Of a stretch of DNA of 64,000 nt, positions 7,326 to 31,421 are shown piece by piece. A program made the position numbers and the translations under genes. This DNA is from a virus. Every line of letters starts with the position of its first letter. Position 1 is the stretch's first letter. The notes under the pieces were generated by a model. The model had not been told where the DNA came from. It saw nothing but the letters and a program-made list of their open reading frames with translations, and made no database searches. The DNA is taken from IMG/VR virus record IMGVR_UViG_3300002835_000007, positions 141,932 through 205,931 of that record, one strand, 5' to 3'.

Positions 7326-8120
7326 TTAATTTTGTGAATCATACGTTATATTTCTATCTTTAGCGAAATAATATTCTTTTTTAGCAGTTGCTAACCACCA
7401 TCTTGCCTCAACTGGGTCAATAGTTTCTCTGTAAGATGCAAATAATGAGTCTTTTCTTTGGTTAATATGTTTGTATCCAAATCTAGGGATAACCATAACT
7501 CTAGCGTCTTTAAATGTCATTCTTAATAAGAATTCAGTAATGAAGGTTAATTTAATACTTGGTTTAAATCCTCCGAACTCATCATACATTGATTTTTTCA
7601 TTACAAACCCATCAACATTAAAGTTTTGGTAAGCTAATAGAGCATTGTTATCTAGGATTCCTAATTCATCAGAAAAACTTTGAGCCCATACTGCTTCGTT
7701 TGTAAAACCAATAAACTCATTATTTTCATTAACGTCAATAACGATAGGCATAAAGATATCTACGTTAGTATGTGCTTTTTGATATTCAACAACATTTTTA
7801 AACCAAATATTAGAATATTCATCATCAAGTTCTAAGATTGAGAACCATTCTGTTTTACATACTGACACACCATAATTTATTTGAGATGCGAAATCAGTTT
7901 GTCCATCATTTTCAGCAATAACAACAGAATTGCTATAATCACCAAAATCTAGAGTTTTAATATGTTTTACTACATCACTATTTTTAGGTGCTACAATTAT
8001 TAAAGTTTCTGGTCTAACATTTTGAGTTAAGACACTTTTAATTGCGTTATCTAATAAAGGTTTAGTCACTTCATTTAAAGCGTGCACTGGTAAAATTACA
8101 CTTATATTATTTTTTTCCAT
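7326..8120 (-). CDS. glycosyltransferase family 2-like (GT-A)
   Basis: 264 residues with a typical GT2 start, NISVILPVHALNEVTKPLL, then a repeated small-to-large hydrophobic beta-strand pattern, LIIVAPKNSDVVKHI, and the acidic nucleotide-sugar motif in WFSILELDDEYSNIW (about 95-105), which stands where DxD normally sits. The second half contains QNFNVDGFVMKKSMYDEFGG, the usual acceptor-side region. It ends four bases before the late sigma gene and is the first of the long carbohydrate gene run. Donor and acceptor are not predictable. Confidence 0.75.
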   Translation of the reverse strand: MEKNNISVILPVHALNEVTKPLLDNAIKSVLTQNVRPETLIIVAPKNSDVVKHIKTLDFGDYSNSVVIAENDGQTDFASQINYGVSVCKTEWFSILELDDEYSNIWFKNVVEYQKAHTNVDIFMPIVIDVNENNEFIGFTNEAVWAQSFSDELGILDNNALLAYQNFNVDGFVMKKSMYDEFGGFKPSIKLTFITEFLLRMTFKDARVMVIPRFGYKHINQRKDSLFASYRETIDPVEARWWLATAKKEYYFAKDRNITYDSQN

Positions 8121-8141
8121 ATTTTTTAATTTAATATTTTA

Positions 8142-9293
8142 TTATGCGTTAGTTGGTTCAACCTCGCTTAAAGATTCAGTTAATTTTTCTAAAACAATAC
8201 CTAATTCTGCTTTTCTACTTTCAAAAAGTTTAGTATAAACTTCAGATGCAGCAGCGATTTGTTTTTCACTAGTGTATTGACCTTTAGATTCAGCCATACC
8301 ATTTAATAATTCTTGTGGTAATGAATCTTCAAACCAAACTTTTAAATAGTTAGCGATTAGTTCTGGAATGTTTAAAGTTGTGTTAGTCCAAACACCATTA
8401 TTTTTAATTACTTTAACACCACTCTCATTTGTTGTTTCCATCCATTCTGGAACCATGTTAGGTATTTTACCAATTACTGGTGTGTTTGACTCAATTGCTT
8501 CCAATGGGAAAGTACCAAATCCAGATTGGTCATCAATCCAAACAGCTAAACAAGATTTAGATAATTCAGCAGCAAATTGTTTTTTAGGTAACCCTCTTAA
8601 TTCTTTAAATGTAATCCATTTGTAAAGTGGGTATTGTAAGTAGAATGATTTAGCTATTTTAGCAGCTTCACCATGGTTTCTAGTTAAAATAGAAACAACT
8701 GGGATTTTAGGTTTATCACTATCTGTAAAATAATCAGAAATAGATACTGGTACAACATGTGTTTGAATTGAAGGGAATAATGATTTAACATAATCCGCTT
8801 GTTTTTCAGATGTAGTAATTACATCGTTAAATCCGTAATCAACGTTCCATCTTTTACCAATTTGTAACAATTCTAATAAATAATCATAACTTTGTGATAT
8901 AACTATTTTTTTACATGGAAACCCTTTAAGTTGGTCCATAATGTTAGAAAAAATTTCTGGTATAACCACAAAATCAGAAGGTGATATGTTTAACTCTTGC
9001 CCTTCAATTGAAGCGTGAGGTAAAGCAGCATATTCTTCACCTAACCAATCAGCGACACCATTACCTTCTTGGTCACCTCTTAATTTATAATCATTTTTTT
9101 CATGTAACACACATGCACTGTATCCTAAATCATTTAAAATTTTAACGTGTTCGTAAATGTTAGCGATACCAGCGGTTGGGTTACCTTTTGTGTCTAGCAC
9201 AAAGAAATAAACTCTAAAGTTTTTAGTTTCAAAGTTATTTAAAGCCAAAGCTATTTGGCTTATTTGTTCTTCAATTTGTTTTTTTTGTTCCAT
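8142..9293 (-). CDS. glycosyltransferase, GT-B fold
   Basis: 383 residues. N-terminal Rossmann-like half: FRVYFFVLDTKGNPTAG, then ANIYEHVKILNDLGYSACVL, the usual first step of GT4-type enzymes. The C-terminal half carries the donor-binding signature region GFGTFPLEAIESNTPVIG (about 275-292), including the glutamate of the E-x7-E-like element. A helical acidic tail ends the protein. Spacing to the next gene is about 20 bases. It probably uses a nucleotide sugar. Substrate is unknown. Confidence 0.75.
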   Translation of the reverse strand: MEQKKQIEEQISQIALALNNFETKNFRVYFFVLDTKGNPTAGIANIYEHVKILNDLGYSACVLHEKNDYKLRGDQEGNGVADWLGEEYAALPHASIEGQELNISPSDFVVIPEIFSNIMDQLKGFPCKKIVISQSYDYLLELLQIGKRWNVDYGFNDVITTSEKQADYVKSLFPSIQTHVVPVSISDYFTDSDKPKIPVVSILTRNHGEAAKIAKSFYLQYPLYKWITFKELRGLPKKQFAAELSKSCLAVWIDDQSGFGTFPLEAIESNTPVIGKIPNMVPEWMETTNESGVKVIKNNGVWTNTTLNIPELIANYLKVWFEDSLPQELLNGMAESKGQYTSEKQIAAASEVYTKLFESRKAELGIVLEKLTESLSEVEPTNA

Positions 9294-9314
9294 ATTTTTA
9301 GTGTTATTATTTGG

Positions 9315-9683
9315 TTATTCTTTTTCTTTTAAAATACCGTAATTATATAATGTATTAAAAGCTATTTTATATCCTAATGAAGTTTTATCTAGAGCTCTTT
9401 CAGCACCTAATGAATCATCGTCAGTATCTTCGGTTGCGTCCATTAATATTTCAATCATAACTCTTAAAATATCGTATTTAGTTGCGTCAATTTCTCTTGG
9501 TCTTTCTCTTTCAACTTCTGTTATTTCAGAACTTAAAACTTTACCATTTTCATCAAGATAAGTTTTAGTTTCTTTTTCAATAATTTTTTTACCAGATTTA
9601 GTTCCGATAGATTTAATTGTGCTTTCTAAAGCATCAACATCGATGTAGTATATGTTACCGCCAAATTCAATCATGTTAATCAA
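9315..9683 (-). CDS. hypothetical protein (122 aa)
   Basis: 122 residues. It starts MINMIEFGGNIYYIDVDALE; an internal Met at residue 4 is an alternative start. It has a charged beta-hairpin (KKIIEKETKTYLDENGKVL) and a helical acidic second half, IMIEILMDATEDTDDD-like in character. Its start overlaps the end of the HAD-like gene by 8 bases, so it is coupled to it. No family recognised. Confidence 0.6.
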   Translation of the reverse strand: MINMIEFGGNIYYIDVDALESTIKSIGTKSGKKIIEKETKTYLDENGKVLSSEITEVERERPREIDATKYDILRVMIEILMDATEDTDDDSLGAERALDKTSLGYKIAFNTLYNYGILKEKE

Positions 9684-10281
9684 TTTCTTCGTAATTTGTT
9701 ATTTTAGTATTTAAGATTCTATTTCTTAATTCTTCATTATTAATAAAGTCCAATATTGAATCAATCTCATAATCAGACACAACGTCTTTGTTATAAGAAG
9801 ATTTAACTTTGATACTTATTTTACCGCTTGGTTTTAATTCTAATGTTTTAGGATTAGCTGTGATTAAAACATCTACATCGTCCCATTTTTCATCGTAGTT
9901 TAGAACAAATTTTATGTTTTTAATTCGGCAGCCAGTTTTTGATAAAAAGAAGAAAGTTGAAGGAATGCTTTTTTCCACTTCTCTGCTTATTAAGATAATT
10001 TCATGTTCTCCTTCATCTTCAATATCTGTTAAGAAATTATTGAAATGATTCATTAAACCATCTGACATCTGGTCAGCATGACCAAAAATTTCTAGAGGTG
10101 CTTCTAAATATAGAAACCTATTAAGTTTATTGATGTCATCAAACTTAAAATGTTCAATTAAATTGAAACTGGTAACATCATCATTTGTGATGTCAATTTC
10201 TTCAATATACTTATTATATGTATAAGCAAATTGACCGATAAAATCTCGCAATACCTCGTTTATAGTAATACCTATCTTCAT
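9676..10281 (-). CDS. degenerate HAD-like protein
   Basis: 201 residues. The order of elements recalls a phage 5'(3')-deoxyribonucleotidase-type HAD fold: N-terminal strand and helix MKIGITINEVLRDFIGQF, a middle strand HEIILISREVEKSIPSTFF where the HAD threonine/serine motif lies, and WDDVDVLITANPKTLELKP like the motif IV region. The first motif normally reads DxDxT, but here it is TINEV, so the catalytic aspartates are missing. If the fold call is right the protein is probably a non-catalytic relative. It may be a regulator or binding protein; alternatively the resemblance is misleading. Confidence 0.45.
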   Translation of the reverse strand: MKIGITINEVLRDFIGQFAYTYNKYIEEIDITNDDVTSFNLIEHFKFDDINKLNRFLYLEAPLEIFGHADQMSDGLMNHFNNFLTDIEDEGEHEIILISREVEKSIPSTFFFLSKTGCRIKNIKFVLNYDEKWDDVDVLITANPKTLELKPSGKISIKVKSSYNKDVVSDYEIDSILDFINNEELRNRILNTKITNYEEID

Positions 10282-10325: not shown

Positions 10326-11219
10326 TTATTTTTTTGTAAAAAATGATAAAACTTTACCAAAAATACTTTTTTCTTTAATAATCTGAGATTTTGGTGACTC
10401 TGGTTTTACTATTTGTGTTTGTCTGGATTTTTCATCTAACAGTCTTTTTTTTCTATTGTCATATAACTTGATGAAATAAGAAGTCAACCTATGTCTAACA
10501 ACTTCATCAGCATTAAATTCAACGACACCAACACCTTCTTCTGGATTGTTTTTAACGTCTTCAATTAACGCTTCTAACGCACTATCGCTTTCATCTTTTA
10601 AATCTATTTGTCCAGTATCACCCAAAGCAACTACTTTAGTATTTTCAGAAAAACGTGTTAAGAATGTTTTAGAGTTTTTATGTCTAACGTTTTGGTATTC
10701 ATCAATGATAATAATACAGTTAGAAAAAGACCTACCACGAATAGAACCAAACACTTCCATTTTGATGTACCCAGCTTCCATTAATTTGTTAGTAAGTTCT
10801 TCACCAATCAATTTATAAAAAGCATCAAAGTAAGACATCATAATGAATTTAAGTTTGTCTTTTTCATCACCAGGCAGCGTACCCAAATCTTCACCTTTTA
10901 ATTGTTCAACAGACTTAACTAATTTAATTTCACGATAAATTTCTGGATTGTTTTTAAGTAACAATAATGCTTCGGCAACACTTAAAAGTGTTTTACCAGT
11001 GCCAGCTGGACCAGTACAAAAAGTCACGTCATTGGTCTTAATTGAATTGGTTAACTTCTTTTGCGTCTCATTTTTGTGTTTTATATCAATTTTAATTTGA
11101 GATAATAAAACCGTTGGTCCTTTGGTAAAACTTTCGTCTTCTGTTGTAATTTTTTTAGCTCTAGTGCTAGTAGTTCTAGTAGTTCTAGTAGTTTTTGTTG
11201 CAATAGGTTTTTTGTTCAT
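10326..11219 (-). CDS. phoH: PhoH-like ATPase
   Basis: 297 residues. Walker A is GPAGTGKT (70-77) and Walker B is IIIIDEYQN (about 170-177), the standard PhoH arrangement. KLVKSVEQLKGEDLGTLPGD and KVVALGDTGQIDL, with the later RHRL near 245, complete the P-loop helicase-like core. PhoH proteins are common in phages, and some have RNA-helicase or nuclease-associated activity. An N-terminal low-complexity tract (TKTTRTTRTTSTR) is encoded by short repeats. A TATTTATAA element lies 11 bases upstream. It lies between the HAD-like gene and the GDPD gene within the carbohydrate block, so it is an ordinary phage gene embedded there. Confidence 0.9.
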   Translation of the reverse strand: MNKKPIATKTTRTTRTTSTRAKKITTEDESFTKGPTVLLSQIKIDIKHKNETQKKLTNSIKTNDVTFCTGPAGTGKTLLSVAEALLLLKNNPEIYREIKLVKSVEQLKGEDLGTLPGDEKDKLKFIMMSYFDAFYKLIGEELTNKLMEAGYIKMEVFGSIRGRSFSNCIIIIDEYQNVRHKNSKTFLTRFSENTKVVALGDTGQIDLKDESDSALEALIEDVKNNPEEGVGVVEFNADEVVRHRLTSYFIKLYDNRKKRLLDEKSRQTQIVKPESPKSQIIKEKSIFGKVLSFFTKK

Positions 11220-11282: not shown

Positions 11283-11726
11283 TTATTTATAATTTTCAAC
11301 AACATCACTACAAACACCAATAGCTGAAGAAACATCTTCATTATGTAGCTCTGGCATAACAGCAATGCTATTTCTTATTGGTTGTTTATTTGGAAAAGCC
11401 CATATGTAATTAAGGCTTGTTAATGTAACGGTATCATTTTCATGCCAAAAATAATTAAAAGGAAAGAATTCAAAATTAGCATTGAAATAGGTCATCGCTT
11501 CTATGTTTTTACAGTGAATCCATAATTTTGAAATCCTATCTCGAAACCATCTAAAATCAACACCATATTGTGGTTCATCATGACCTAACCAGAAAATATT
11601 GTCTTTGTACCAAACATCAACTTCAACATCATAACCTTTGGATATTGCTAAGTCAATGTAAGTTGGTTCGTTCTCCCAACTCTCCATTTTTCCATTTATG
11701 TTACCTCTATGTGATATTAACTTCAT
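11283..11726 (-). CDS. GDPD-like phosphodiesterase domain protein
   Basis: 147 residues if started at the ATG that overlaps the upstream stop by four bases (ATGA). An upstream in-frame ATG would add 26 residues lying wholly inside the SGNH gene and is rejected. The product begins MKLISHRGNINGKMESWENE, with the HR and ENE of glycerophosphodiester phosphodiesterases, then YDVEVDVWYKDNIFWLGHDE, supplying the E-x-D and HD catalytic set. The family usually hydrolyses glycerophosphodiesters on a TIM barrel; at 147 residues this is shorter than full-length enzymes and may be a compact variant. Its place in the glycan block suggests a role on phosphodiester-linked sugars or lipids, which is inference. 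Confidence 0.65.
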   Translation of the reverse strand: MKLISHRGNINGKMESWENEPTYIDLAISKGYDVEVDVWYKDNIFWLGHDEPQYGVDFRWFRDRISKLWIHCKNIEAMTYFNANFEFFPFNYFWHENDTVTLTSLNYIWAFPNKQPIRNSIAVMPELHNEDVSSAIGVCSDVVENYK

Positions 11727-12367
11727 ATTAAATTCTTTTCTGAAAATGATTCTAAAATAAGCGGCATTGATGTTTGGCTCAAATGCATATGTGAACCTTC
11801 CCAATTATCCAAATATTCTGGTTTAGTTATTTTATTTTCACCTATCATTTTATAAAATATTGTTACAAATTCAATACCATTTTGGTTACACAATTCTTCT
11901 AAGTATCTGTTAAATTCTTCAGTAACTAAGTTTCTTTCTAAACAAGTACCAAATGAAGGTCCGCCAGTATATTGTTTTGACTCATGCCATGACGCAATTG
12001 GACCCCATGCGATAACTTTAAGACCAGCTTCTTTATATCTTAATAAAACACTAAAATATCTATCAACGCATTCTTTAACTATTTCATTAACAGTTTTAGT
12101 TTGCGATTCCATTTGTTTAATTAAATGAGCTCTAATATCAACTTCACCAAAACAAAATAAAACATAATCATTATCAATATTAACATTATAATTAATTATT
12201 TCATCAATTACTGGCATTTTATTTTCAAGTTGGTAAGCGGTTGCTGGCCCAATTCTGTAACTTTTAAAAAATGGAGTTATGTCATCAGACCTTTGTGGCC
12301 ATATTGGTTGCATTTCTTCTTTACCACTGAAAACAGCAGAGTGACTATCACCTATACAATGTATCAT
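11723..12367 (-). CDS. SGNH/GDSL-type hydrolase
   Basis: 214 residues. The N-terminus IHCIGDSHSAVFSG carries the GDSH block I with nucleophile serine, CFGEVDIR stands in the position of the Gly/Asn blocks, and HMHLSQ near the C-terminus supplies the Asp/His-like block V. SGNH enzymes are esterases or acetyltransferase partners, often trimming or acylating surface glycans. The start lies 20 bases inside the upstream GT gene, but GDSH needs it. The gene is coupled by ATGA to the GDPD gene. Function in glycan modification is likely but not proven. Confidence 0.65.
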   Translation of the reverse strand: MIHCIGDSHSAVFSGKEEMQPIWPQRSDDITPFFKSYRIGPATAYQLENKMPVIDEIINYNVNIDNDYVLFCFGEVDIRAHLIKQMESQTKTVNEIVKECVDRYFSVLLRYKEAGLKVIAWGPIASWHESKQYTGGPSFGTCLERNLVTEEFNRYLEELCNQNGIEFVTIFYKMIGENKITKPEYLDNWEGSHMHLSQTSMPLILESFSEKNLI

Positions 12368-13331
12368 AATTCATAATGTTTTTACTTAAATTGTTATAAA
12401 AATTAATTTCATCTTGTTCACCATTTTCACCACCAATAGCCCATGGGTTTTGATTAGCATAAACAGTATTAAACATAGGGTGAATACCAAATCCATTTTT
12501 AACAAATAAAAACTTTTTATTGTTATCCCTTTTGTATTTATTTAACGCTATTTCATCGTATGCGTCCACTGTTGGTTGTGATAATATATTAACCCATTCA
12601 GATGTTTTTATAAAAAACATACTATTAGTGAAATATGGTGAATGGATTTCAAATAATTCATAATTATTATCGGAAGTGAATTTATCAATATTTTTTAAAA
12701 TATAGTTATTAATTTCCATCTGAGCTTCATATGAAATCCTAAGTGGGTGAATACCTTTTGTAATAGTGTTTAATGAATTTAAACCTTCGTAAAACTTATT
12801 ATAATCCCATTCAGTAGCGTTTATTGTAAACTGATTCAAAGGTGTGTAGTCTACATTCCATAAACCATTTGGCATTGGTCTGTTTAAAAAATGTTTATAA
12901 ACAATATCTCTAACTGATAAATCATCAATAAAATCATTAATAAAAAAATCACATGATGGAATATTATTAGACATAGTTGGTGATAAAGTTAATACTTCAT
13001 CATTGTTTAACATATCAACATTTTCAATTAGGTAATCCCAAACATAATTGTTAATAAAACAATCTTCATCTAATTTAACTGAATATTCAGTATCAGTTGA
13101 AATAGCAATTCTTATTTTATTTAAGTAATTATGATGTCCGTTAATTACATGTATTGTATATTCAATACCTAAACTATCACATTTATTAACCCAATCATTG
13201 TCATGGGTTGCTAAAACATTTAATTTTAATTTTAGTTTATTTTCTGGTTTTATTTTAGATAAAAAATAGAACATTAAATTTGAGTAATCTAATCTATTGT
13301 GTGATAAATAATTTATAGTTATTGTTTTCAT
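12348..13331 (-). CDS. glycosyltransferase-like protein (GT-A type)
   Basis: 327 residues. It starts KTITINYLSHNRLDYSNLMF, as GT2-like enzymes do. YSVKLDEDCFINNYVWDYL (about 82-100) holds the DED acidic cluster in the donor-binding position. The C-terminal third has KKFLFVKNGFGIHPMF and WAIGGENGEQDE, which could contribute acceptor binding. The start is coupled by ATGA to the GT14-like gene. No close family is recognised; the fold call rests on the N-terminus and the acidic motif. Confidence 0.6.
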   Translation of the reverse strand: MKTITINYLSHNRLDYSNLMFYFLSKIKPENKLKLKLNVLATHDNDWVNKCDSLGIEYTIHVINGHHNYLNKIRIAISTDTEYSVKLDEDCFINNYVWDYLIENVDMLNNDEVLTLSPTMSNNIPSCDFFINDFIDDLSVRDIVYKHFLNRPMPNGLWNVDYTPLNQFTINATEWDYNKFYEGLNSLNTITKGIHPLRISYEAQMEINNYILKNIDKFTSDNNYELFEIHSPYFTNSMFFIKTSEWVNILSQPTVDAYDEIALNKYKRDNNKKFLFVKNGFGIHPMFNTVYANQNPWAIGGENGEQDEINFYNNLSKNIMNYDTLYR

Positions 13332-14119
13332 TTCATATAATTTTGTCTAATGAATTGTTTTAATTCACAATTTTTATGGTAATTAACTCTTTTAACAGAG
13401 AAATAACCTTGATTGAATTTTTCAACAATTTGATTTATTGTAATTACCCAATTATAATTAGGTTTATTTGATGGGTCGTAAGTACCAAAGTAAGGTGGAA
13501 ACTCCCATTGTTGTCCGCTAAGTAAAATCATATAAGGTAGAAAAATATTTATCATATCATCATTAGGGTAATATTCTAAACATTTGTCTAAATGCTGCTT
13601 AGCCAATAACATAACTTCTTTTGTTACTGTCATACATTCCCAATTAGCACTCATAGGTAATTCTATATTATATTCAAGATATAAATTTTTAGGGTCCCAA
13701 CGACCATATGGTTGCTGTAATGGAAACCCTACAATAGTTTTGTCTGAGTCTTTTCCGTTATATGATGAAACCCAATCTTCAGTATTTAAAAATTGTGCAT
13801 AATTAACACCTTTTTCAAAGTTAATTCCATTTATAAAGTATTGGTTAGCTGAAACTAAACAGAAGTGTTCAAAACTATTTATTTCATCTTCACTTATATT
13901 TCTAATTAAATCAATCAACGCACCAAAAATAAAGTTAGAATGATTTAAAGGACCAAGCATATGACGCATTCTAATTTTAGGGTGGTCTAATGTTGGGTGA
14001 TTAATCATGAAATCACAATTATCATGGAAATAAGATATGTTATCTATCATATCATCAACATCTTCAATCGTGTGTGTTGTTGAGTGAGCAAATATTATAA
14101 ACGCTGTTTTAGATTTCAT
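13328..14119 (-). CDS. GT14-like glycosyltransferase (core-2/I-branching type)
   Basis: 263 residues: KTAFIIFAHSTTHTIEDVDD, NISYFHDNCDFMINH, FEHFCLVSANQYFINGI and a C-terminal KRVNYHKNCELKQF. The pattern of an AH start, then a DxxxN-hydrophobic pair, then an S-x-x-D-like element is that of GT14 branching enzymes, which are metal-independent and lack a DxD motif; none is seen here. It overlaps the GatZ-like gene by 11 bases. Linkage and donor are unknown; known GT14 members add GlcNAc or xylose. Confidence 0.6.
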   Translation of the reverse strand: MKSKTAFIIFAHSTTHTIEDVDDMIDNISYFHDNCDFMINHPTLDHPKIRMRHMLGPLNHSNFIFGALIDLIRNISEDEINSFEHFCLVSANQYFINGINFEKGVNYAQFLNTEDWVSSYNGKDSDKTIVGFPLQQPYGRWDPKNLYLEYNIELPMSANWECMTVTKEVMLLAKQHLDKCLEYYPNDDMINIFLPYMILLSGQQWEFPPYFGTYDPSNKPNYNWVITINQIVEKFNQGYFSVKRVNYHKNCELKQFIRQNYMK

Positions 14120-15107: not shown

Positions 15108-15119
15108 ACACCAAATATA

Positions 15120-17010: not shown

Positions 17011-17011
17011 A

Positions 17012-17371: not shown

Positions 17372-17387
17372 AATTTTATTTTTTTAA

Positions 17388-21302: not shown

Positions 21303-21303
21303 G

Positions 21304-23360: not shown

Positions 23361-24187
23361 TATTTAAAAATTTTAGTGTTCTTATATATCCAATCTTCTG
23401 CAATTAAAAATTCTTTTGCTTTTTCAAAGTTTTCTGTAATTGCTGGAAGCATATTGTTGTATTGTTCTAAAGATAATAAATTTAATTTTGAAAGTAAATC
23501 TTCTACATCATTAAAAATAATCATCCCATCTAAATTAAAAAAATCACCTATAGATGGACAACCCCAATAAATTGGGACGGTGCCAGTAACAAAACTATCC
23601 ATTAATTTTTCGGTAAAATAGTAATCTGAACGACTATTTTCAATTATCAAAGAAAACGCATAATCTTTTAATGATTCTAACTTATAATCAATTGGGTTAT
23701 AACCTCTACCATACGCATCTAATCCAATATTATTTGCTCTTAAAACATCTATCGATGCATGTCTTAATCTATGACCTTCAGTTTGTCGTTTGTCTGATGC
23801 AATTATTGATAGTAATTTTGTTTTATCATAAATGCTTTGGTCTTCTTCTTTTATCCAGCAGCCACAATGTGGGTAAAACAATGCGTTTGAACAGCTATCT
23901 AATAAGTTTTTGTCATAGGTCAACACATTTTTAAAGTGACCATGATTAGAACTAACCCATTCATAAATCGCTGGGTTTATCGCTCTAGGTTCCATTAACA
24001 TACCTATTTTGTTATTGTTAACTATATTGACACTATTGTTTAAAGAGTTATCTGTAATAAACAAAATTTCTTCTTGACTGATGTTTCTACTTCTATCCCA
24101 ATTAATAAATTTAGAAATTTGATAATCGGTTGTGTATTTTGCGTGTGCAAAATTTATATCTATTATTTTTACGTTATTTAAACACAT
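23360..24187 (-). CDS. GT10-like fucosyltransferase
   Basis: 275 residues from the ATG at MCLNNVKIIDINFAHAKY. An upstream in-frame ATG (8 codons earlier) would overlap the upstream gene by 38 bases; the chosen one overlaps by 14. The C-terminal half carries the GT10 signature around DYYFTEKLMDSFVTGTVPIY, then WGCPSIGDFFNLDGMIIF, as alpha-1,3-fucosyltransferases have (family D-Y-V-T-E-K-F-x-x-A-x-x-x-G-x-V-P). These enzymes use GDP-fucose. No GDP-fucose synthesis gene is visible here, so the donor would come from the host or from elsewhere in the genome. Confidence 0.7.
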   Translation of the reverse strand: MCLNNVKIIDINFAHAKYTTDYQISKFINWDRSRNISQEEILFITDNSLNNSVNIVNNNKIGMLMEPRAINPAIYEWVSSNHGHFKNVLTYDKNLLDSCSNALFYPHCGCWIKEEDQSIYDKTKLLSIIASDKRQTEGHRLRHASIDVLRANNIGLDAYGRGYNPIDYKLESLKDYAFSLIIENSRSDYYFTEKLMDSFVTGTVPIYWGCPSIGDFFNLDGMIIFNDVEDLLSKLNLLSLEQYNNMLPAITENFEKAKEFLIAEDWIYKNTKIFK

Positions 24188-24995
24188 ATTTAAGTTCTTT
24201 ATGTGGGCCATTTATATCTGAAAACTCCATAGATATTAAATCAATTTCATCACCAGATAAAAATTTATCGTTTAATTCTTTTTCGCTTATACCAAATTGC
24301 AACCCGTGTCTATTATTGAATGTATCATTAACTAGATTAGCTGGTATACTAACTAACTTAGATTCAGTAAATGATTTAACAGTTTTTGGGATGGAATCAG
24401 TCACAACAAATCTTTGTAAAAAAGCTTCTAATGTGTTTGGGTTTCTAAAATCAATCTCAATCAACAAATCTTTTATAAAAGTTGTGTTAAAAATATGACC
24501 ATCTGTTGATAATGGATATTTAAAATCACCATTTTGCTGCTTAGTGTAATCAAATGTCATGTATTCACCATCAACTTCGTGTTCACCTAATTCATAATGC
24601 AAATCAGCTGGGTGTGAATAATTACAATTTTTACCTAATCGTAATGAAAAAATAACAAAATCTTCAACAACTGGTTTTATTATATCTATTTTTCTAGCTA
24701 AAATTTGGTTATAAACAACTGCGTCATCAACCATGAAAGTTGTTGCTTCGATTTCATCATCAATAAGTTTAAATAAATCTTTTCTAAAATTATTTTCATT
24801 AAAGAAATATATACTAGGATATTTTTCAAATAATTTTTGATACCCATATAAGTAATCTTCATTATCTGTTTTATACAAAACACTAATTTTGTCAAATAAA
24901 AGTGGAGCATTTGTTTTTAATGAATCTAACAAAAGATTCAATTGACATGCTCTATTTTTAGAAAAAATTATTAATTGATTTTTATAGTTTTTCAT
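24174..24995 (-). CDS. glycosyltransferase-like protein (GT-A type)
   Basis: 273 residues. NQLIIFSKNRACQLNLLLDS is a strong GT2-like start, and TTFMVDDAVVYNQILARK (about 85-102) holds the VDD acidic motif. Nearby NYSHPADLHYELGEHE may help catalysis. It is coupled to the GT25 gene by ATGA. The acceptor is unknown. Confidence 0.65.
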   Translation of the reverse strand: MKNYKNQLIIFSKNRACQLNLLLDSLKTNAPLLFDKISVLYKTDNEDYLYGYQKLFEKYPSIYFFNENNFRKDLFKLIDDEIEATTFMVDDAVVYNQILARKIDIIKPVVEDFVIFSLRLGKNCNYSHPADLHYELGEHEVDGEYMTFDYTKQQNGDFKYPLSTDGHIFNTTFIKDLLIEIDFRNPNTLEAFLQRFVVTDSIPKTVKSFTESKLVSIPANLVNDTFNNRHGLQFGISEKELNDKFLSGDEIDLISMEFSDINGPHKELKYVFK

Positions 24996-25615
24996 TCGTT
25001 AAAAAAATTTGAATAATCTACGTTACGATTTTGTATATCACTAAACCCAGCTGTTTGTTTAGCCATGTTAGGATAAAAACCGTATGCGTTAAATCTGTTA
25101 TGTAATTCAGCATAATATGCGTCAACTTGTTTTTTTCTTTTAGTTAACACAGACTCTATAATTTCAAACATGCTGCTGTTAATTGCAACACATTGTAATG
25201 CAACAGTAAAGTTTAACTTGATAACTTTATCATTAATTAGATGTGGTGGTTGGCCATAGACATGGTTGCCTCCAAAATAAATGAAATCCCAATCAGATGG
25301 CACATTATTAATATATTCATCTAATTTTAAAATTTCATCCGTAAAATAAACATCATCTTCTAAAATAAGCACATTTTTAACGTTCTCTTCTTTACATTTT
25401 TTTATTATCTGAAGATGTGATTCTAATACACCTAATTCACCAGCTAATAAAGGTATTTCATTAGACATGATAGTTGTTCCATCAATAGCTGAAAAGCGTT
25501 CAACCTCTTCAATACCATATTTTTCTAATTCTTTTTTAAAAGAATCAAATCTATCTGGTCTTCTATCTAAATTAATCACATATACCTTATCAAAATATTT
25601 CTTAAAATCTATCAT
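24992..25615 (-). CDS. GT25-family glycosyltransferase
   Basis: 207 residues with the clear Glyco_transf_25 pattern: FDKVYVINLDRRPDRFDSFK (8-27), then RFSAIDGTTI, LGVLESHLQIIKKCKEENVK and NVLILEDDVYF with the EDD donor motif. GT25 enzymes transfer galactose or related sugars to LPS or, in eukaryotes, to collagen lysines. The family call is reliable; donor and acceptor are not. ATGA couplings link it both to the 318-aa gene upstream and to the next gene downstream. Confidence 0.85.
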   Translation of the reverse strand: MIDFKKYFDKVYVINLDRRPDRFDSFKKELEKYGIEEVERFSAIDGTTIMSNEIPLLAGELGVLESHLQIIKKCKEENVKNVLILEDDVYFTDEILKLDEYINNVPSDWDFIYFGGNHVYGQPPHLINDKVIKLNFTVALQCVAINSSMFEIIESVLTKRKKQVDAYYAELHNRFNAYGFYPNMAKQTAGFSDIQNRNVDYSNFFNE

Positions 25616-26568
25616 TTTTTGGCTTTTTGTTCATATTTTTTATCAAGTTCTTTTACTCTATATGCGTCAAGAATATCGTTACCGTCTGTTTTAATTTTAG
25701 CGTTGAACTTGATTACGTAATAACCATTGTATTCAACTATTTTGTCATAAGAAATATTGTCATATTCATATTCTAAATAATCATCTGTACCTAATGTTTT
25801 ATATGTGATAAAATTAATTTCATTAAAGTCTAACATTGTTGAATTGATGCCATCATTCATGATTTTTTTAACTTCACTAATAAACAAACGACTAGTTCTA
25901 TTGTATTCATCTGGATATTTACTTACATAAAATTCTAATAATTTATTAGTTTTATCTATTGTTCTAACATTCATTTTTAACGTAAAGTTTTCTAAATAAA
26001 AGTTAGGTAAATTTTCTCTGATGATTATTATAGGACGTTCAGATTTATTTGTAGCAAAATAATTAATAGACTCAATAATACCATGTGTTGCAACTAAGTC
26101 ACCATTTTCATTTGTTGATTGAATAACTTCATCGAATAAAGATATATTATCGTTATTCATTGCTTGGTTACTACCTATTACAATTTCTGAGTTATCAACA
26201 ACCATTTCTAATTTATAATCATCAGATGGGTCTAATTTAACTTTTTTAAGTCCTAGTTTTTTATTAACTTTTTTAGTTTTAACAATAGGCATCCCATCTT
26301 CGTCATACCCTACAATTTCAGCAGTAACACCTTCACTTTCTTTTAGTATTTTATATGTTCTCCATCTAAGGTTCATAACTTCTTGAGTTATCTCACCTTG
26401 TTTTAATGAGTCAGCCAATTGACCTTGGGTATTTCGTTGGGTTTGATTTACATCTGAACCCAACGTTTCGCCTTGCTGCCCTAAAGCATTTTTTTCAACA
26501 TTACTCATAGCTAATGTTAACATAGCCATTCGTCTGTTAAACCATTGTTTTAATTTATTAAAAACCAT
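25612..26568 (-). CDS. phage protein of unknown function (318 aa)
   Basis: 318 residues. The N-terminus is helical and hydrophobic, FNRRMAMLTLAMSNVEKNAL, followed by a Gln/Asn-rich segment (QQGETLGSDVNQTQRNTQGQ) and then a beta-rich domain with YDEDGMPIVKTKKVNKKLG and SKYPDEYNRTSRLFISEVKK. I recognise the general pattern from other Bacteroidetes phages but not its function. It is embedded in the glycosyltransferase run and coupled to GT25 by ATGA. The N-terminal segment could bind a membrane or a partner. Confidence 0.6.
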   Translation of the reverse strand: MVFNKLKQWFNRRMAMLTLAMSNVEKNALGQQGETLGSDVNQTQRNTQGQLADSLKQGEITQEVMNLRWRTYKILKESEGVTAEIVGYDEDGMPIVKTKKVNKKLGLKKVKLDPSDDYKLEMVVDNSEIVIGSNQAMNNDNISLFDEVIQSTNENGDLVATHGIIESINYFATNKSERPIIIIRENLPNFYLENFTLKMNVRTIDKTNKLLEFYVSKYPDEYNRTSRLFISEVKKIMNDGINSTMLDFNEINFITYKTLGTDDYLEYEYDNISYDKIVEYNGYYVIKFNAKIKTDGNDILDAYRVKELDKKYEQKAKK

Positions 26569-26569
26569 A

Positions 26570-28219
26570 TTAATCTAAAATTAATTCGTATTGTTGTTTA
26601 ATTTCTTTAACAACATTATCACTTTTAAATTTATCGATATCTTCTGGAATGTCATGTAAATTTTTACTTAAAATATTACCAGATGAATCAACATCATATA
26701 TCCAACCTTTTTTACCACACATCCATCCTTCGATAGTTGTTCTACCTAATAAGATACCAGCTGTTTCATCACATTTATGAATATATTGCTCAACATTTGA
26801 TGTTGGACCATGATATTTAACATGTGGTTCGTTTTCAATCATACTAGGTAAGTAATTATCGTTTTCTTTACCAACAAGCCATAATTCTTGATTGTTTTCT
26901 TTGGTAGTGTTAATAAGGTCTTGAATAGTTTGTTTTCTAAGATAATCAATAGTACCAACAAATAAAATTCTTTTCTTATCTCTCTTTTCAGTTGATTTAA
27001 TTGGTTTAAACTTTTCTTCGTTTATAGGATTATAAATAACTTCAACTTTATCAGTTTCGATATTAAAATTCTTAACAATATGTTCTTTAATTTCTGGTCT
27101 TATCGCAATGTATTTTTTAATTTGTGGAGATAACACTGGTTCCTCTAAATTAATCACTTCAGAGTGAATAGAACAAATAACTGGAGTCTCTGGATATAAT
27201 CTAAGTAAATGCTCAGTAACTGGTTTATGGTTTAAATGGATTACATCAAATTCAATATTTGAAACTTTATACAAAGTATTTGGTTGAGAGGTAACATCAC
27301 CTTCTGGAGTTTTTAATAGCCATTTACCATCACCTAATTTAAAACCTGGCGGTTCTTGTAATGAATATAATTTGATACCTAATTGTTTTGCTGCTTTAGC
27401 CAAAGGTTCGCCAATACTTGAACACACACTTACGTTACAACCATCTTTAACCAACTTTTTAGCCAATTCAAAAACATATAATTCAGAACCAGTATAATTA
27501 GCAAAACTTAAACATCCAATAAGAACATCTAATTTCTCATTTTTTCTTAATTGTTTTTTAATATTAACTGGTAGTTTATCTTTAAATGCTTCAGCGAATT
27601 GTTGTCTATTAGACTCCCATTGTTCGTTTGTCATACCTATAGACAAGTGATTAACTCTAATAGATGTAATTACACCTACCTTAACACCTTTTAGATGATT
27701 CTCAAAACAAAATGTTACATCATAAAAGTGGAAACCTTCTACTGATTCATTAAACTTAATTTTCATTTTAGTTTTATCAACAGCAAAAAACAAACCGTCA
27801 ACAATAACAACTTCTTCAACTGATTGACCTAAATCTTCAGAGTAAGAAGATAACCATGATTTACCTTCATGTGTATGCTGTACTCTACCATACATTTTTT
27901 TAGATTTAACCCACCATTGGCCAGTCTCTGACATGTATTTAGTTCCAGCAACACCAATGATACCATATTCTGGATTCTTTTCAAACGTTTTTAATAATTT
28001 GTTACCCCATTGTTTAGTTTCAATAGTTAAATCATCATGACAAAAAACAACAATATCGTTTGTAGCCATTTTTAAGCCACGATTGTAAGCTTTTGTTAAC
28101 GATTCACCATTATTGATTATTTCTATCACCTCAATGTGTTTATGAAGCCCAGATGACTTTATAAGATGTTCTTTATGTTCTGGATTTGATTGTCTGGTAC
28201 AATATACTACTGTAATCAT
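26570..28219 (-). CDS. bidomain glycosyltransferase (GT2 + GT4)
   Basis: 549 residues. First domain (about 1-220): ITVVYCTRQSNPEHKEHLIK start and NDIVVFCHDDLTIETKQWGN with HDD at 61-63 in the donor position, plus a second acidic block near VEGFHFYDVTFCFENH. Second domain (about 230-549): LDVLIGCLSFANYTGSELYV as in GT4 N-domains, ICSIHSEVINLEEPV, and KRILFVGTIDYLRKQTIQ with GRTTIEGWMCGKKGW (E-x-type donor region). The pair could add two sugars in succession. It is coupled to the 318-aa gene (one-base spacing) and to the 86-aa gene by ATGA. Confidence 0.8.
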   Translation of the reverse strand: MITVVYCTRQSNPEHKEHLIKSSGLHKHIEVIEIINNGESLTKAYNRGLKMATNDIVVFCHDDLTIETKQWGNKLLKTFEKNPEYGIIGVAGTKYMSETGQWWVKSKKMYGRVQHTHEGKSWLSSYSEDLGQSVEEVVIVDGLFFAVDKTKMKIKFNESVEGFHFYDVTFCFENHLKGVKVGVITSIRVNHLSIGMTNEQWESNRQQFAEAFKDKLPVNIKKQLRKNEKLDVLIGCLSFANYTGSELYVFELAKKLVKDGCNVSVCSSIGEPLAKAAKQLGIKLYSLQEPPGFKLGDGKWLLKTPEGDVTSQPNTLYKVSNIEFDVIHLNHKPVTEHLLRLYPETPVICSIHSEVINLEEPVLSPQIKKYIAIRPEIKEHIVKNFNIETDKVEVIYNPINEEKFKPIKSTEKRDKKRILFVGTIDYLRKQTIQDLINTTKENNQELWLVGKENDNYLPSMIENEPHVKYHGPTSNVEQYIHKCDETAGILLGRTTIEGWMCGKKGWIYDVDSSGNILSKNLHDIPEDIDKFKSDNVVKEIKQQYELILD

Positions 28220-28476
28220 TTTCTAGTTAAATTATATTTTGTTATGAAATCTTCATAACTTATTTTTTCGATAGTATTATCACTAAACCCTACGTTTGGT
28301 GAAAATAGAACAAAACCCTCAGTAGATAAATCTATTGAAGGTTCTAATGCGTCTACTGCTGGTCTTTCATATTTCCAATGATTTTCATCATCAGAAATAT
28401 TTATAAATCTTCCATTGAAGATACCAGCTGTTTTAGCATGTTCTTTTAATGTTTCTATAAATTCTGCTCTAATCAT
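28216..28476 (-). CDS. hypothetical protein (86 aa)
   Basis: 86 residues: MIRAEFIETLKEHAKTAGIF, then DDENHWKYERPAVDALEPS. Coupled by ATGA on both sides (to dut and to the bidomain GT), so it is part of this operon. No motif is recognised. The mix of charged and aromatic residues suggests a small soluble globular protein. Confidence 0.6.
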   Translation of the reverse strand: MIRAEFIETLKEHAKTAGIFNGRFINISDDENHWKYERPAVDALEPSIDLSTEGFVLFSPNVGFSDNTIEKISYEDFITKYNLTRK

Positions 28477-29063
28477 TTTACACCAGTTGAACCGAAACCA
28501 CCAGAACCACGTTCTGTGTTTTCGTCTATGTTATCTACTTTATTTAAATTAATAAAGTTTTTGCCGATTACAGAAGCAATAACTGCTTGTGCAATTCTAT
28601 CACCATGACTAATAGTAAAAGCTTCATCGCCATGGTTGATTAAAATAACTTTAACTTCGCCACGATAGTCAGCATCCACAGTTCCAGGTGAGTTCAAAAC
28701 AGTTACACCATTTTTAGCAGCCAAACCACTTCTAGGTCTAACTTGAATTTCAAAATTCTCTGGAATTTCAAAATATAAACCAGTAGGGATAATTCTAACA
28801 CCATGTGAAGGTATAGTAATCGGTGAATCTAAATTAGCTCTTAAATCAAAACCAGATGAACCAGAAGTTGCATATTCTGGGTCTTGGTTATTTGATTCGT
28901 TTTTAAAATTAAATTTAATTTTATGAGCATCATAATTAATACTAAATTTATCAGCGTTAAATTCGTTATCAAAATCTTCTTGCGTGTAACCACTATCTGG
29001 GTCAGCAATTAACAAGATTTTGTTTCTCATGTCTGCTATTAAGTCTTCGTTATCTAAACTCAT
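28473..29063 (-). CDS. dut: dUTPase
   Basis: 196 residues from the ATG at MSLDNEDLIADMRNKIL, one base after the HD gene's stop. All five trimeric dUTPase motifs are present: SSGFDLRA (69-76), RPRSGLAAK (109-117), GTVDADYRGEVKV (127-139), GDRIAQAV (154-161) and ERGSGGFGSTG (184-194). It hydrolyses dUTP to dUMP, keeping uracil out of phage DNA and supplying dTMP. An N-terminal extension of about 60 residues (DPDSGYTQEDFDNEFNADKF) is not part of the usual fold. The HD gene upstream suggests a nucleotide-metabolism pair. Confidence 0.95.
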   Translation of the reverse strand: MSLDNEDLIADMRNKILLIADPDSGYTQEDFDNEFNADKFSINYDAHKIKFNFKNESNNQDPEYATSGSSGFDLRANLDSPITIPSHGVRIIPTGLYFEIPENFEIQVRPRSGLAAKNGVTVLNSPGTVDADYRGEVKVILINHGDEAFTISHGDRIAQAVIASVIGKNFINLNKVDNIDENTERGSGGFGSTGVK

Positions 29064-29064
29064 A

Positions 29065-29628
29065 TTACTTTTTAGTTTTTTCATTTTTAACAGCAAACAA
29101 TACAGCTGTTTTTAATAAATCACCTAACATTGAGTTATGATACTCAACCATTTTATCATCACTTTTATCTAAATTAATGATTGCGGTGTATTCTTGTTCA
29201 GTTAACTGGATACCGTGTGACATAGTATAATAAACACTTCTTTCACCCACTCTCATAGATGTTAAGTCTTCATTAAATTCGTACATTTTTCCTTGGTTTT
29301 TTCTGTGCCATTCTGAATCACATGGCTTGTAAAGATTTGCTTTACCAATTTGGTGAAGAAGACAAACTTTCAATAATGAGTTTTGGTCAACTTTTTCTTC
29401 TTCTGGTAATGCGTTATTGAATTTTACAGCGTAAGACCCTACTCTAAGAAGGTGGTCGATTAAACCACCTTCAAAAGCATTGTGTAGGTCTGCCATTGTT
29501 GACGCTGGAGCTTTAATAAAAGACTCCCCTAAGAATTTCATGAATTCATCATTCATGAAACCTAATTTTGTTGCAGTGTCAAAATATTTTTTTGTGTTAG
29601 CAACAATTTTTTCTTGTGTTAATGACAT
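29065..29628 (-). CDS. variant HD-domain protein
   Basis: 187 residues. The pattern is that of HD phosphohydrolases: FEGGLIDHLLRVGSYAVKF (H59) and KVCLLHQIGKANLY, but the usual HD doublet is HQ (H92-Q93), with MSHGIQLTEQEYTAI following. Loss of the metal-binding aspartate predicts low or altered catalysis. It is encoded directly before dUTPase and might act on nucleotides, or bind them as a sensor. The N-terminal region is helical. Confidence 0.65.
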   Translation of the reverse strand: MSLTQEKIVANTKKYFDTATKLGFMNDEFMKFLGESFIKAPASTMADLHNAFEGGLIDHLLRVGSYAVKFNNALPEEEKVDQNSLLKVCLLHQIGKANLYKPCDSEWHRKNQGKMYEFNEDLTSMRVGERSVYYTMSHGIQLTEQEYTAIINLDKSDDKMVEYHNSMLGDLLKTAVLFAVKNEKTKK

Positions 29629-29691
29629 ATTATTTTATTTTATTAGTTTTATATTTACTAATATACTAACAAAATACGAATAAATCAATAT

Positions 29692-30150
29692 TTATTTTTG
29701 AAGTTTTTCAAAAACTTCAGATTTATTTATAGGTGCATATAAATGGTTTTCTTGTTCATTTAAAACACTTGGTGGTACACTAGGTGTTATTGGTTTTTTA
29801 GTTTCCAAATCATCCATAAAATCTTTAGCGTTACTTAAAATTTCTTTAATGTTTTTAGTTCCTTTTTCTTTTTTATGCGTTTCTATTCTTTCATTATCAA
29901 CAATAGCTATTTCATCTTCATCTCTTTCACCATGCGGAACCAAAGTAGGTCTACCCATTGTTGTTCGTCTCATTCTGTCCATAAGTTCAGTACGTTTCAT
30001 AACGTCCAAGATATGTTTAGCTGATTCATCTTCTTTAGGTGTTTCAGTTAATACTTGTTTAGATTCAACTTTAAGTTCTTCTTTTTCATCTTCTCTTAAT
30101 AACTCAATCATAAAGTTAAATAAAAGTTTAATATCGTCTTTTCTACTCAT
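29692..30150 (-). CDS. hypothetical protein (152 aa), charged
   Basis: 152 residues, very charged: FNFMIELLREDEKEELKVES, then MKRTELMDRMRRTTMGRPTL and KKEKGTKNIKEILSNAKDF. Reads as a largely helical, partly disordered protein. Its start overlaps the stop of the upstream GT gene by one base (TAATG). Its last codons form a hairpin GAAGTTTTT-G-AAAAACTTC, which could be a weak terminator. No family recognised. Confidence 0.6.
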   Translation of the reverse strand: MSRKDDIKLLFNFMIELLREDEKEELKVESKQVLTETPKEDESAKHILDVMKRTELMDRMRRTTMGRPTLVPHGERDEDEIAIVDNERIETHKKEKGTKNIKEILSNAKDFMDDLETKKPITPSVPPSVLNEQENHLYAPINKSEVFEKLQK

Positions 30151-31421
30151 TATGCTATTTCTTTTTCTTCTTTTGTTATTGTTTTTTGTTTAGCAGCAAT
30201 AAGGTTTAAATACAATTCACGTCTTTGTTCGGTTACTTTATTCAATGAATAAGTATCTTTAACTGTGTTGTGTAAATTATCTTGTAATTGTTTAACAATA
30301 TCTTGATTTTGAATTAATTTTTTAATTGACGCATACCAATCTTTATGGTTTTTAACTTCATCAATCAAGATGCCATTACCATCTTCTTCAAACCCACCAC
30401 CAAATTTAACAGCGTTTTTAATATCTATTGTATAAGGTCCAAAATTTTGAGCGATAATTGCTTTATGGTGGAAACCAGCTTCAATTACTTTTAATTGACT
30501 TTTAACCTTATTAAAGATATTTTCTTCTAGCGGTGCTAACGATACGTCAAATAAATTATAGTTAGTAGCGTAAGTAGAAATAGGTTTAGTCCAAACACGT
30601 CTATACGCTTCGTTATTAATCCCTTCAAATTCAGAATTAGGTATAAATTTCATTAAGAAATCTTTATATTCTGGACTAACTGATTTATAGTCATCAGTAA
30701 AGATTCTTTCATATGAATACCAAACACTTTCCATTGGGCTAATGTTTCTAGTTCTTTGTTCACCAGTTGTTGGGTCAATTTCAGTGTGGGTTCCTCTAAT
30801 ATCAAATCCACATAACACAAATTGAACTTTATCAATTAATTTATCTGTTGTAAGTTTAGCGACAATACCTTTTAAAATTTCTAAATCTTTTAAATGCGAT
30901 GAACCACCTAACCACCCAATTCTAAGTCTTCCATTTGATGGTTCTAAGTTAGGGGTGAATTGTTTTTCTGTTGGTTCGATTGCGTTAGCTAAAACGTGAA
31001 CATTTTTATTAAATTTAGCAATTTCATTAGCGAATAAAGTTGTTGTAGTTGTTACATTTTCAGCTAATTTAATGTTATTTAAAATCATCTCATCGATTTT
31101 ATGTGCTTTGATTAAATGATACGCTGGGTGATGTTCACCTGGAGACCAATAATCATCTAAATCCATAATGGTAACAATACCTAAAGATTTTAATTTTTCT
31201 AATAACGGACCCATTTGTTCATAATTACCTAATGTTCTATGGTAATGGATAATATCATATTGTTTTAACCATTCGTCATTGTTTAATTGTGGCTCATAAT
31301 CAACGTCAACGTGAAATTCAGTTGGGTAGTTATTTTCTAATGCGATATGAGGGTTTGTGCTTCTGTAATATGAAACACCAGTTCTGTCACTTGGTACTAC
31401 TAGTACTTTTAATTTTTTCAT
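30150..31421 (-). CDS. glycosyltransferase, GT-B fold
   Basis: 423 residues. Two Rossmann-like halves: KVLVVPSDRTGVSYYRSTNP with DIIHYHRTLGNYEQMGPLLE, then GRLRIGWLGGSSHLKDLEIL (about 180-200) and VKSQLKVIEAGFHHKAIIAQ, the donor-binding helix. The signature resembles GT4-type enzymes. Overlaps the 152-aa gene by one base. First gene of the glycan operon to be transcribed after the structural block. Confidence 0.8.
   Translation of the reverse strand: MKKLKVLVVPSDRTGVSYYRSTNPHIALENNYPTEFHVDVDYEPQLNNDEWLKQYDIIHYHRTLGNYEQMGPLLEKLKSLGIVTIMDLDDYWSPGEHHPAYHLIKAHKIDEMILNNIKLAENVTTTTTLFANEIAKFNKNVHVLANAIEPTEKQFTPNLEPSNGRLRIGWLGGSSHLKDLEILKGIVAKLTTDKLIDKVQFVLCGFDIRGTHTEIDPTTGEQRTRNISPMESVWYSYERIFTDDYKSVSPEYKDFLMKFIPNSEFEGINNEAYRRVWTKPISTYATNYNLFDVSLAPLEENIFNKVKSQLKVIEAGFHHKAIIAQNFGPYTIDIKNAVKFGGGFEEDGNGILIDEVKNHKDWYASIKKLIQNQDIVKQLQDNLHNTVKDTYSLNKVTEQRRELYLNLIAAKQKTITKEEKEIA

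Follow-up and report, generated by a model that had tools for sequence, protein, structure and literature searches.

We propose that the genes between positions 7326 and 31421 of the window (the whole stretch of 64,000 nucleotides analysed, from IMG/VR record IMGVR_UViG_3300002835_000007) form a phage 'glycotype' locus, in which a conserved frame of glycosyltransferases (GTs) encloses a swappable cassette and whose product is likely a glycan on a virion protein; we judge this explanation somewhat better than even. The conserved frame, the hypervariability of the cassette and its horizontal exchange between phages are direct observations.

All 31 ORFs at 7326-31421 lie on the minus strand, in the tightly overlapping arrangement that the initial annotation had described (many overlaps, of 1-80 bases), and glycan enzymes are their dominant content. 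That annotation had treated the run as a single 24-kb island of glycan genes; PhoH, dUTPase, an HD protein, g3, g4, g25, g27 and g30 are interspersed, and the functional unit is instead a variable cassette of ~14.3 kb flanked by conserved edges. The layout of a four-GT frame around exchangeable contents had gone unnoticed. The edges are conserved core, comprising four GTs (g1, g2, g26 and g31) together with sigma, PhoH and dUTPase, present in essentially all of 37 related contigs. The order sigma-g1-g2-PhoH ... g26-dUTPase-g31 is common to the 37 loci, over an interval of 12.5-32 kb. The frame and its boundaries are as follows:

6597..7322 (-): sigma-70 region-2 protein, left conserved anchor (Pfam Sigma70_r2, E 2.6e-4; 46/50 related contigs)
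7326..8120 (-): g1, core GT2 (Pfam PF00535, 3.7e-8; 37/37 loci, 43-93% identity in the others)
8142..9293 (-): g2, core glycosyltransferase, GT-B-like (PDB 8xsg, 'putative glycosyltransferase', E 8e-16, with a profile built from 35 sequences; 37/37 loci)
9315..10281 (-): g3 and g4, core proteins (g4 in 37/37 loci, g3 in most)
10326..11219 (-): g5, core PhoH-like ATPase, forming the cassette's inner left border (Pfam 1.3e-52)
11283..25615 (-): variable glycan cassette, g6 to g24, 14.3 kb (missing or replaced in most of the 37 loci)
25612..26568 (-): g25, non-GT protein (its cluster in 21/37 loci)
26570..28219 (-): g26, core GT2-GT4 fusion (Pfam 2.4e-36 and 9.9e-13; 35/37 loci over half its length)
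28216..30150 (-): g27, g28 dUTPase, g29 HD protein and g30, mostly core, non-glycan
28473-29096 (-): g28, dUTPase (Pfam 7e-29)
29065-29628 (-): g29, HD protein
30150..31421 (-): g31, core GT4-like glycosyltransferase, right anchor (phrog_7162, 7.7e-40; 49/50 contigs)
31485..31512 (strand not assigned): palindromic terminator, AAAAAAGGGGTCTTTAAACCCCTTTTTT, between the island run and the fibre-side genes

Pfam and PHROG searches returned no match for g3 and g4 and no function for g25. The g26 fusion had no match among 50,697 phage records, and the baseplate gene, too, was unmatched among cultured phages. Four homologues of g31 carry inteins, which suggests that this core GT is a strongly constrained gene. 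The core GTs, the sigma gene and the baseplate genes belong to a single run and point the same way.

Within this frame, the cassette encodes the following:

11283..11726 (-): g6, short GDPD-like protein (phrog_34507, 7e-36; PDB GDPD match weak, 0.029)
11723..12367 (-): g7, SGNH/GDSL-like hydrolase (Pfam Lipase_GDSL_2, 0.0021, under the cut-off)
12348..13331 (-): g8, predicted GT-A-fold glycosyltransferase (AlphaFold2 and Foldseek)
13328..14119 (-): g9, GT14-like by eye, unclassified
14109..15107 (-): g10, GatZ/KbaZ-like TIM-barrel protein (Pfam 0.013; PDB 3txv, 0.0021 by profile)
15120..16670 (-): g11, LicC-like nucleotidyltransferase fused to an APH/choline-kinase-like kinase (PDB 1jyk, CTP:phosphocholine cytidylyltransferase, 3e-8; Pfam APH 0.001)
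16657..17010 (-): g12, cupin of mannose-6-P isomerase C-terminal type (Pfam 1.8e-8)
17012..17371 (-): g13, HAD phosphatase (Pfam Acid_phosphat_B, 5.7e-8)
17388..18080 (-): g14, weak GT2 (Pfam 0.0075; 0.0039 in a homologue)
18080..18793 (-): g15, putative GT, unclassified
18723..19367 (-): g16, methyltransferase (Methyltransf_24, 1e-11)
19371..19691 (-): g17, cupin-like by eye (Pfam match weak, 0.033)
19693..20442 (-): g18, methyltransferase (Methyltransf_24, 2e-10; ATG start probably 20400)
20415..21302 (-): g19, DUF6492 (Pfam 1.8e-7)
21304..22677 (-): g20, HAD (beta-phosphoglucomutase-like) fused to a sugar-nucleotide nucleotidyltransferase (Pfam 6.5e-32 and 1e-11; PDB 4evw, 1.6e-28)
22665..23360 (-): g21, putative GT-A (WGxGED-type motif by eye)
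23360..24211 (-): g22, GT10 fucosyltransferase-like (Pfam 1.8e-9)
24174..24995 (-): g23, predicted GT-A-fold glycosyltransferase (AlphaFold2 and Foldseek)
24992..25615 (-): g24, GT25 (Pfam 2e-15)

The initial annotation had counted about 13 GTs. Ten are supported (g1, g2, g8, g14, g19, g22, g23, g24, g26 and g31), with the DUF6492 family of g19 taken by us to be GT-A-like, and three are left unclassified: Pfam gave no match for g9 and no meaningful one for g15, a PDB profile search with g21 returned only noise (glycosyltransferase 6p61, 0.093), and PHROGs offered almost nothing for the unclassified GTs. Structural modelling suggests, at medium quality, that g8 and g23 are GT-A-fold glycosyltransferases. 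The g8 model (AF2 pLDDT 68) has TarP, LH3-GT, LARGE1 and COLGALT1 as its top Foldseek hits (E ~2e-6), and that of g23 (pLDDT 78, pTM 0.82), for which the PDB profile search found no match, retrieves GnT-I, TarP and SpsA (E 4e-7); the top 50 hits are all or nearly all GT-A enzymes, with low TM for these medium-quality models. Both fused nucleotidyltransferases, g11 and g20, proved real by Pfam and PDB. The SGNH, GatZ-like and GDPD-like assignments are weak from sequence alone, with the last gaining from an HRG..E.D..HD motif (HRG/ExD/HD) conserved in 15 homologues of g6. The start of g6 is the ATG at 11726 in all 14 homologues, the listed TTG at 11804 being too early, and g6 co-occurs with g20 in 15/15 cases.

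Comparison with related phages, which the initial annotation had called for, shows the edge frame kept in 37 loci and the cassette absent or replaced in most. The 37 cassettes fall into 204 protein clusters, 114 of them seen once, and a Pfam census of 150 cassette families is populated by GT2, epimerases, aminotransferases and methyltransferases. In the sister phage G012, whose flanking proteins are 90-96% identical and flank DNA 83-89%, the middle is replaced by a set that includes GDP-mannose dehydratase, fucosyltransferase-like GT10 and GT11, and an FkbM methyltransferase. Conversely, G044 shares window positions 11499-20400 (8.9 kb of the cassette) at 94.5% DNA identity, whereas outside this block its flank DNA is 65-71% identical and its core proteins about 45-55%. 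The core tree rejects G000 and G044 as a single clade (p ~3e-62), the cassette tree rejects the core grouping (p 1e-35), and the glycotype is scattered over the core tree, with 5 changes for 5 members. Because of the replacement in G012, the transfer involving G044 and the trees rejecting shared descent, we conclude that cassette type moves by recombination. Restriction to one host-derived locus was considered and rejected: the Flavobacteriaceae relatives of g10 (~47-51%) are mostly solitary, in a conserved housekeeping context, and among the inspected bacterial loci no more than five have the g10-g11 neighbourhood. The relatives of g10 number at least 80 bacterial and at least 80 viral, and g11 matched only one marine virus record in the cultured-phage search.

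This phage is very probably a member of the 'moraphage' lineage described in 2025, with Bacteroidota hosts. Moraphages are large, mostly freshwater phages with predicted Bacteroidota hosts, and carry T4-like head proteins, PolB, PhoH, dUTPase and sigma, along with four core orthogroups of putative glycosyltransferases (Arch Virol 2025; PMC12619734). Our record (205,931 bp, possibly incomplete) fits their size range of 200-307 kb and contains TerL, portal, Gp23 MCP, PolB, PhoH, dUTPase, sigma and a ClpA-like protein; the four GTs conserved across the 37 loci may correspond to the four core GT orthogroups. An indirect sign of the host comes from the upstream motifs TATCTTTG (25 seen vs 0.24 expected) and TACATTTG (22 vs 0.47), an excess that fits a Bacteroidota host and would reflect host sigma usage.

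These organism-specific motifs were informative where a generic sigma-70 promoter scan stayed at chance level. A late promoter motif, ATATTTATA, lies in exact form just upstream of PhoH (g5) and recurs in 8 other loci, and an early-type promoter precedes g29, at the head of the HD/dUTPase genes (score 11.8 vs a 1% threshold of 5.1); the part of the run upstream of the cassette has no other strong motif. Because this map places an early-type promoter before HD/dUTPase and no clear break ahead of the cassette, the argument for late expression of the cassette was withdrawn, and the motifs now favour it at most weakly.

Across the 37 loci, none of 981 ORFs has two or more membrane segments, as against 214/1387 ORFs (15%) in bacterial loci and 13/257 (5%) in this phage outside the locus. 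The membrane-segment scan and the Pfam census found no initiating transferase, flippase, polymerase, ligase or exporter in the 37 loci. What the locus holds is sugar-activating and transferase chemistry, and the lack of multi-span proteins implies that the glycan is either made on a cytoplasmic acceptor or passed to host machinery. Virion glycosylation is our leading idea, although a virion protein as the putative acceptor is an evenly balanced call; the complete lack of multi-span membrane proteins speaks for it, as do the universal core GTs co-oriented with sigma and baseplate genes. Counting against it, soluble GTs can act on the host LPS core, with host MsbA then flipping the product.

We propose that the frame enzymes g1, g2, g26 and g31 would build or anchor an inner glycan that these phages have in common. 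The cassette, lying between PhoH and g25/g26, would supply activated special sugars through g10-g13 and g20, with g6, and its GTs, methyltransferases and hydrolase would add and trim outer residues. Since all the enzymes are soluble, chain assembly would be cytoplasmic, and the most likely acceptor would be a virion protein encoded in this run of genes. Phages would exchange cassettes by recombining within the conserved flanks and so change their surface glycan type, which would alter how hosts, grazers or competing phages recognise them. The virion-protein acceptor, the division of labour between inner and outer enzymes and the selective reason are inferred parts of this model. Its fullest form, to which we give slightly less than even credence, joins a phage serotype system (a glycan on the virion whose inner part is conserved and whose outer type is switched when diverged phages recombine whole cassettes at a fixed locus) to an undescribed, mainly viral sugar-activating module consisting of the GatZ-like enzyme, the fused LicC/kinase-like enzyme, a cupin and a HAD protein.

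Remodelling of the host envelope is a less probable but serious alternative, by which the enzymes would alter host LPS or capsule and block superinfection or the binding of virions to debris, while the chains would grow on the lipid A-core or a lipid carrier of the host, whose flippases would export them. This is the usual interpretation of the cyanophage and pelagimyophage clusters (PMC7824862, PMC7029224); GT25, GT10 and GT2 are typical LPS-core enzymes, and the early-type promoter lies upstream of the run leading into the cassette. It sits poorly with 37 loci devoid of initiating transferase, flippase, polymerase and ligase, with four universal core GTs co-oriented with sigma and baseplate genes, and with the presumably small gain to a lytic phage from 15-30 kb of envelope chemistry.

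Glycosylation of modified phage-DNA bases as a defence against restriction, also raised by the initial annotation, is improbable. Many phage GTs have this role and this phage encodes dUTPase and thymidylate synthase, but the active site of the latter, PFNIASY, keeps the Asn of ordinary dUMP synthases, and known DNA glycosylation does not resemble a hypervariable chemistry of many sugars. Neither a dCMP hydroxymethylase nor a C5-methyltransferase with TET was found (PF00145 is absent from the record; the TET search had no positive control). Fusion of a host capsule locus to the phage through assembly error is refuted by the present data. The GC content of the island (0.26-0.31), slightly under that of the window's right half (0.29-0.34), could hint at it, but the same gene order, with proteins 99-100% identical, recurs in three independently assembled IMG/VR contigs (3300044644_001243, 128 kb; 3300043775_002437; 3300020573_000336), the glycan genes alternate with PhoH, dUTPase and phage sigma, and the frame is conserved in 37 phages. 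The initial annotation was right in seeing a glycan pathway of several steps that the phage itself encodes among its structural genes; a captured host locus and an assembly error are both excluded.

Several known systems share parts of this design. P-SSM2-type clusters are likewise large, with several GT families, NDP-sugar enzymes (all also present here), cupins and a nucleotidyltransferase, and vary among relatives; they belong to another lineage and host and are sporadic as published, whereas here a universal core-GT frame occupies a fixed locus (PMC7824862). Their 1-4 NAD-dependent epimerase/dehydratase genes have no counterpart by Pfam in this cassette but do in G012 and other loci. The cyanophage P-SSM2 cluster of 15 genes (PMC7824862) also tempers the earlier view that the number of enzymes exceeds typical phage sets, which holds for glucosyltransferases. 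The host-recognition region of pelagimyophages is hypervariable and GT-bearing in T4-like aquatic phages, but has tail-fibre genes inside it (PMC7029224); here the fibres lie outside, past the terminator, and what varies is glycan chemistry. Chloroviruses build a conserved capsid-glycan core with variable, strain-specific additions, with enzymes of their own that work outside the organelles of the host (PMC7826918). Here, too, the virus encodes soluble GTs, some conserved and some variable, although chloroviruses are eukaryotic viruses with a proven capsid glycan and the virion acceptor proposed here is putative. Bacterial capsule and O-antigen loci share the conserved flanks, hypervariable middle and type switching by recombination, but possess the flippase, polymerase, initiating transferase and exporter that are absent here.

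Clusters of glycan genes in phages are commonly interpreted as auxiliary, host-changing genes; the present locus is a permanent fixture of a phage lineage. Its contents change hands as one block but its frame and position do not move, a viral case of the population genetics of capsule switching. Near-identical sister phages, such as this phage and G012, appear to make different sugar chains, and a difference in surface glycan is predicted between them. The moraphage authors mentioned variable islands without specifying them and recommended that they be studied, leaving the locus, its cassette exchange and its sugar pathways undescribed (PMC12619734); our findings offer a partial answer to their question of what role variable genomic islands play.

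The window spans positions 141932-205931 of a virus record 205,931 bp long. Its run of 31 tightly packed ORFs does hold glycan genes, as the initial annotation proposed, but calling all 24 kb one glycan island oversimplifies it, since PhoH, dUTPase, an HD protein and five genes of unknown function are scattered among them:

6597-7322: sigma-70 region-2 gene, left edge
7326-31421, minus strand (31/31 ORFs): g1-g31; g31 is the right edge
11283-25615, minus strand: variable cassette, g6-g24, between PhoH (g5) and g25/g26
31485-31512: palindromic terminator between this run and the genes on the fibre side
32908-33849: a pair of small paralogous proteins rich in Ser/Thr, located between the core glycosyltransferase (GT) g31 and the fibres, kept in relatives

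Homology searches confirmed several of the GTs initially named. Pfam and PHROG gave clear matches for g1, g22, g24, g26 and g31 and weaker ones for g14 and g19, and left g9, g15 and g21 unproven; together with further searches they identify g20 and g11 as clear sugar-nucleotide enzymes. A profile built from 35 homologues groups g2 with a solved GT structure. For AlphaFold2 models of g8 and g23, GT-A enzymes run right through the top-ranked matches; this is evidence at fold level only, given low TM-scores and the medium quality of the g8 model. A chimeric contig, the artefact of concern initially, is rejected: identical genes in identical order, at 99-100% protein identity, occur in contigs of other metagenome records.

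Searching 50 contigs with the two edge genes recovered sigma in 46 and g31 in 49, separated by 12.5 to 32 kb. In the 37 intervals fetched and compared, sigma, g1, g2, g4, PhoH, dUTPase and g31 occur essentially throughout, 35 intervals match g26 along more than half of it, and g6 through g24 are all patchy. The 37 cassettes comprise 583 ORFs (called with a simple script that may miss small genes), which form 204 clusters, 114 with a single member. Pfam families among 150 cluster representatives include GT2, GT11, GT47, GT25, epimerases, GDP-mannose dehydratase, DegT aminotransferases, hexapeptide transferases and methyltransferases. In four phages (L142:10598-12796 and homologues in G009, G033 and G047) g31 is interrupted by one or two in-frame inteins, at sites between WLGG and S and before SQLKVIEAGF, one bearing LAGLIDADG_3 (E 1.5e-8); inteins are unusual in a GT and hint that g31 is essential. 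In G003, G004, G008 and G027 the sigma gene carries an in-frame insertion past residue ~30, with an open frame of 318 aa.

Cassettes have moved between phages. The sister phage G012 (L028/L107; flanking DNA 83-89% identical, most flanking proteins 90-96%) carries, between g23 and PhoH, an FkbM methyltransferase, a GT10, an RXYLT1-like protein, a GT11 and a GDP-mannose dehydratase, chemistry missing from our cassette save for a GT10 at 43% identity. The converse is G044 (L093), whose core proteins are mostly 44-63% identical to ours and which shares 8.9 kb (window 11499-20400) at 94.5% DNA identity; on either side identity declines through genes at 56-88%, so the pattern looks like repeated crossovers rather than a single assembly join. 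In a core tree of 30 phages, a clade of our phage and G044 is rejected (p 3e-62); in the g8-g11 tree the two group together, fully supported, and it is the core grouping that is rejected (p 1e-35). Both trees used a fast, site-homogeneous model, but the effect is very large. Cassette type is scattered on the core tree, with 5 changes among 5 members.

The linkage of g6 (GDPD-like) with a g20-type nucleotidyltransferase is made striking by this exchange: both are present in 15 of the 37 loci and absent from 22, a co-occurrence with a chance of ~1e-10 if phages were independent, which they are not. In five of the 15, g20 is represented by a tandem pair of nucleotidyltransferase domains that lacks HAD. 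A second association, of g11 with g10, holds in 79/79 viral loci examined (HAD g13 in 61, cupin g12 in 52) and reaches well beyond this phage group; in Flavobacteriaceae g10 is solitary, in a conserved housekeeping context. The module of GatZ-like, fused LicC/kinase-like, cupin and HAD genes occurs mostly in viruses of several kinds (L251-L321), and in bacterial or archaeal bins (L174, L175, L177, L179, L180). Judged from sequence, g10, g11 and the HAD-type enzyme likely make a nucleotide-activated product, which would arise through an aldolase/isomerase-like step, a phosphatase, a kinase and a nucleotidyltransferase.

Upstream regions are enriched in TATCTTTG (25 seen vs 0.24 expected) and TACATTTG (22 vs 0.47). 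Both fit TAnnTTTG, the Bacteroidota promoter element. Such motifs are concentrated in the record's 0-125 kb half (84/219 genes), and a second motif, ATATTTATA, 20-30 bases upstream of ATG, marks structural genes; the two classes, early and late, are usable for predicting expression timing. Counts from the motif models are optimistic because training used sites of this very genome. The late motif lies at PhoH, as in eight other loci, the HD and dUTPase genes carry the early one, and the motif scan found neither in the cassette itself.

The head genes are T4-like, and no close cultured relative was found for the polymerase or baseplate. The gene set matches that of the moraphages, to which this phage very likely belongs; these were described in November 2025 (PMC12619734), with four GT orthogroups in their core and variable islands whose function is unknown. 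Elsewhere in the record, C1:10284-13786 (L099:10284-13786) encodes consecutively an OmpA-domain protein, an ABC permease (BPD_transp_1) and an ABC ATPase, possibly a phage-encoded importer; C1:69459-74364 (L102:12459-17364), minus strand, holds four tandem paralogues starting MR(R/K)FDKKK; and C1:110554-111279 (L104:15554-16279), distant from the island, is a GT2 gene with the record's best GT2 score, adjoining a metallophosphoesterase-like gene.

In a Kyte-Doolittle scan, none of the 981 ORFs from the 37 loci had at least two membrane segments; counts of 214/1387 in bacterial loci and 13/257 in the rest of this phage indicate that the scan works. Nor do the 37 loci encode a flippase, polymerase, polyprenyl-phosphate transferase or exporter, and the glycan would thus be assembled on a cytoplasmic acceptor or passed to host machinery. 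Modification of the host LPS core likewise requires no phage membrane protein, and we give this reading about one chance in three. Modification of phage DNA is unlikely because the thymidylate synthase belongs to the ordinary dUMP class and no C5-methyltransferase was found in the record; a TET search was run without a positive control.

We favour virion glycosylation, at roughly even odds, on the grounds that the core GTs, universal and soluble, share a run with the sigma and baseplate genes and that one of them bears inteins. The Ser/Thr-rich proteins beside g31 are candidate acceptors. Virion glycosylation is also favoured because the arrangement, a conserved core whose decoration is exchangeable, parallels the capsid glycans of chloroviruses (PMC7826918).
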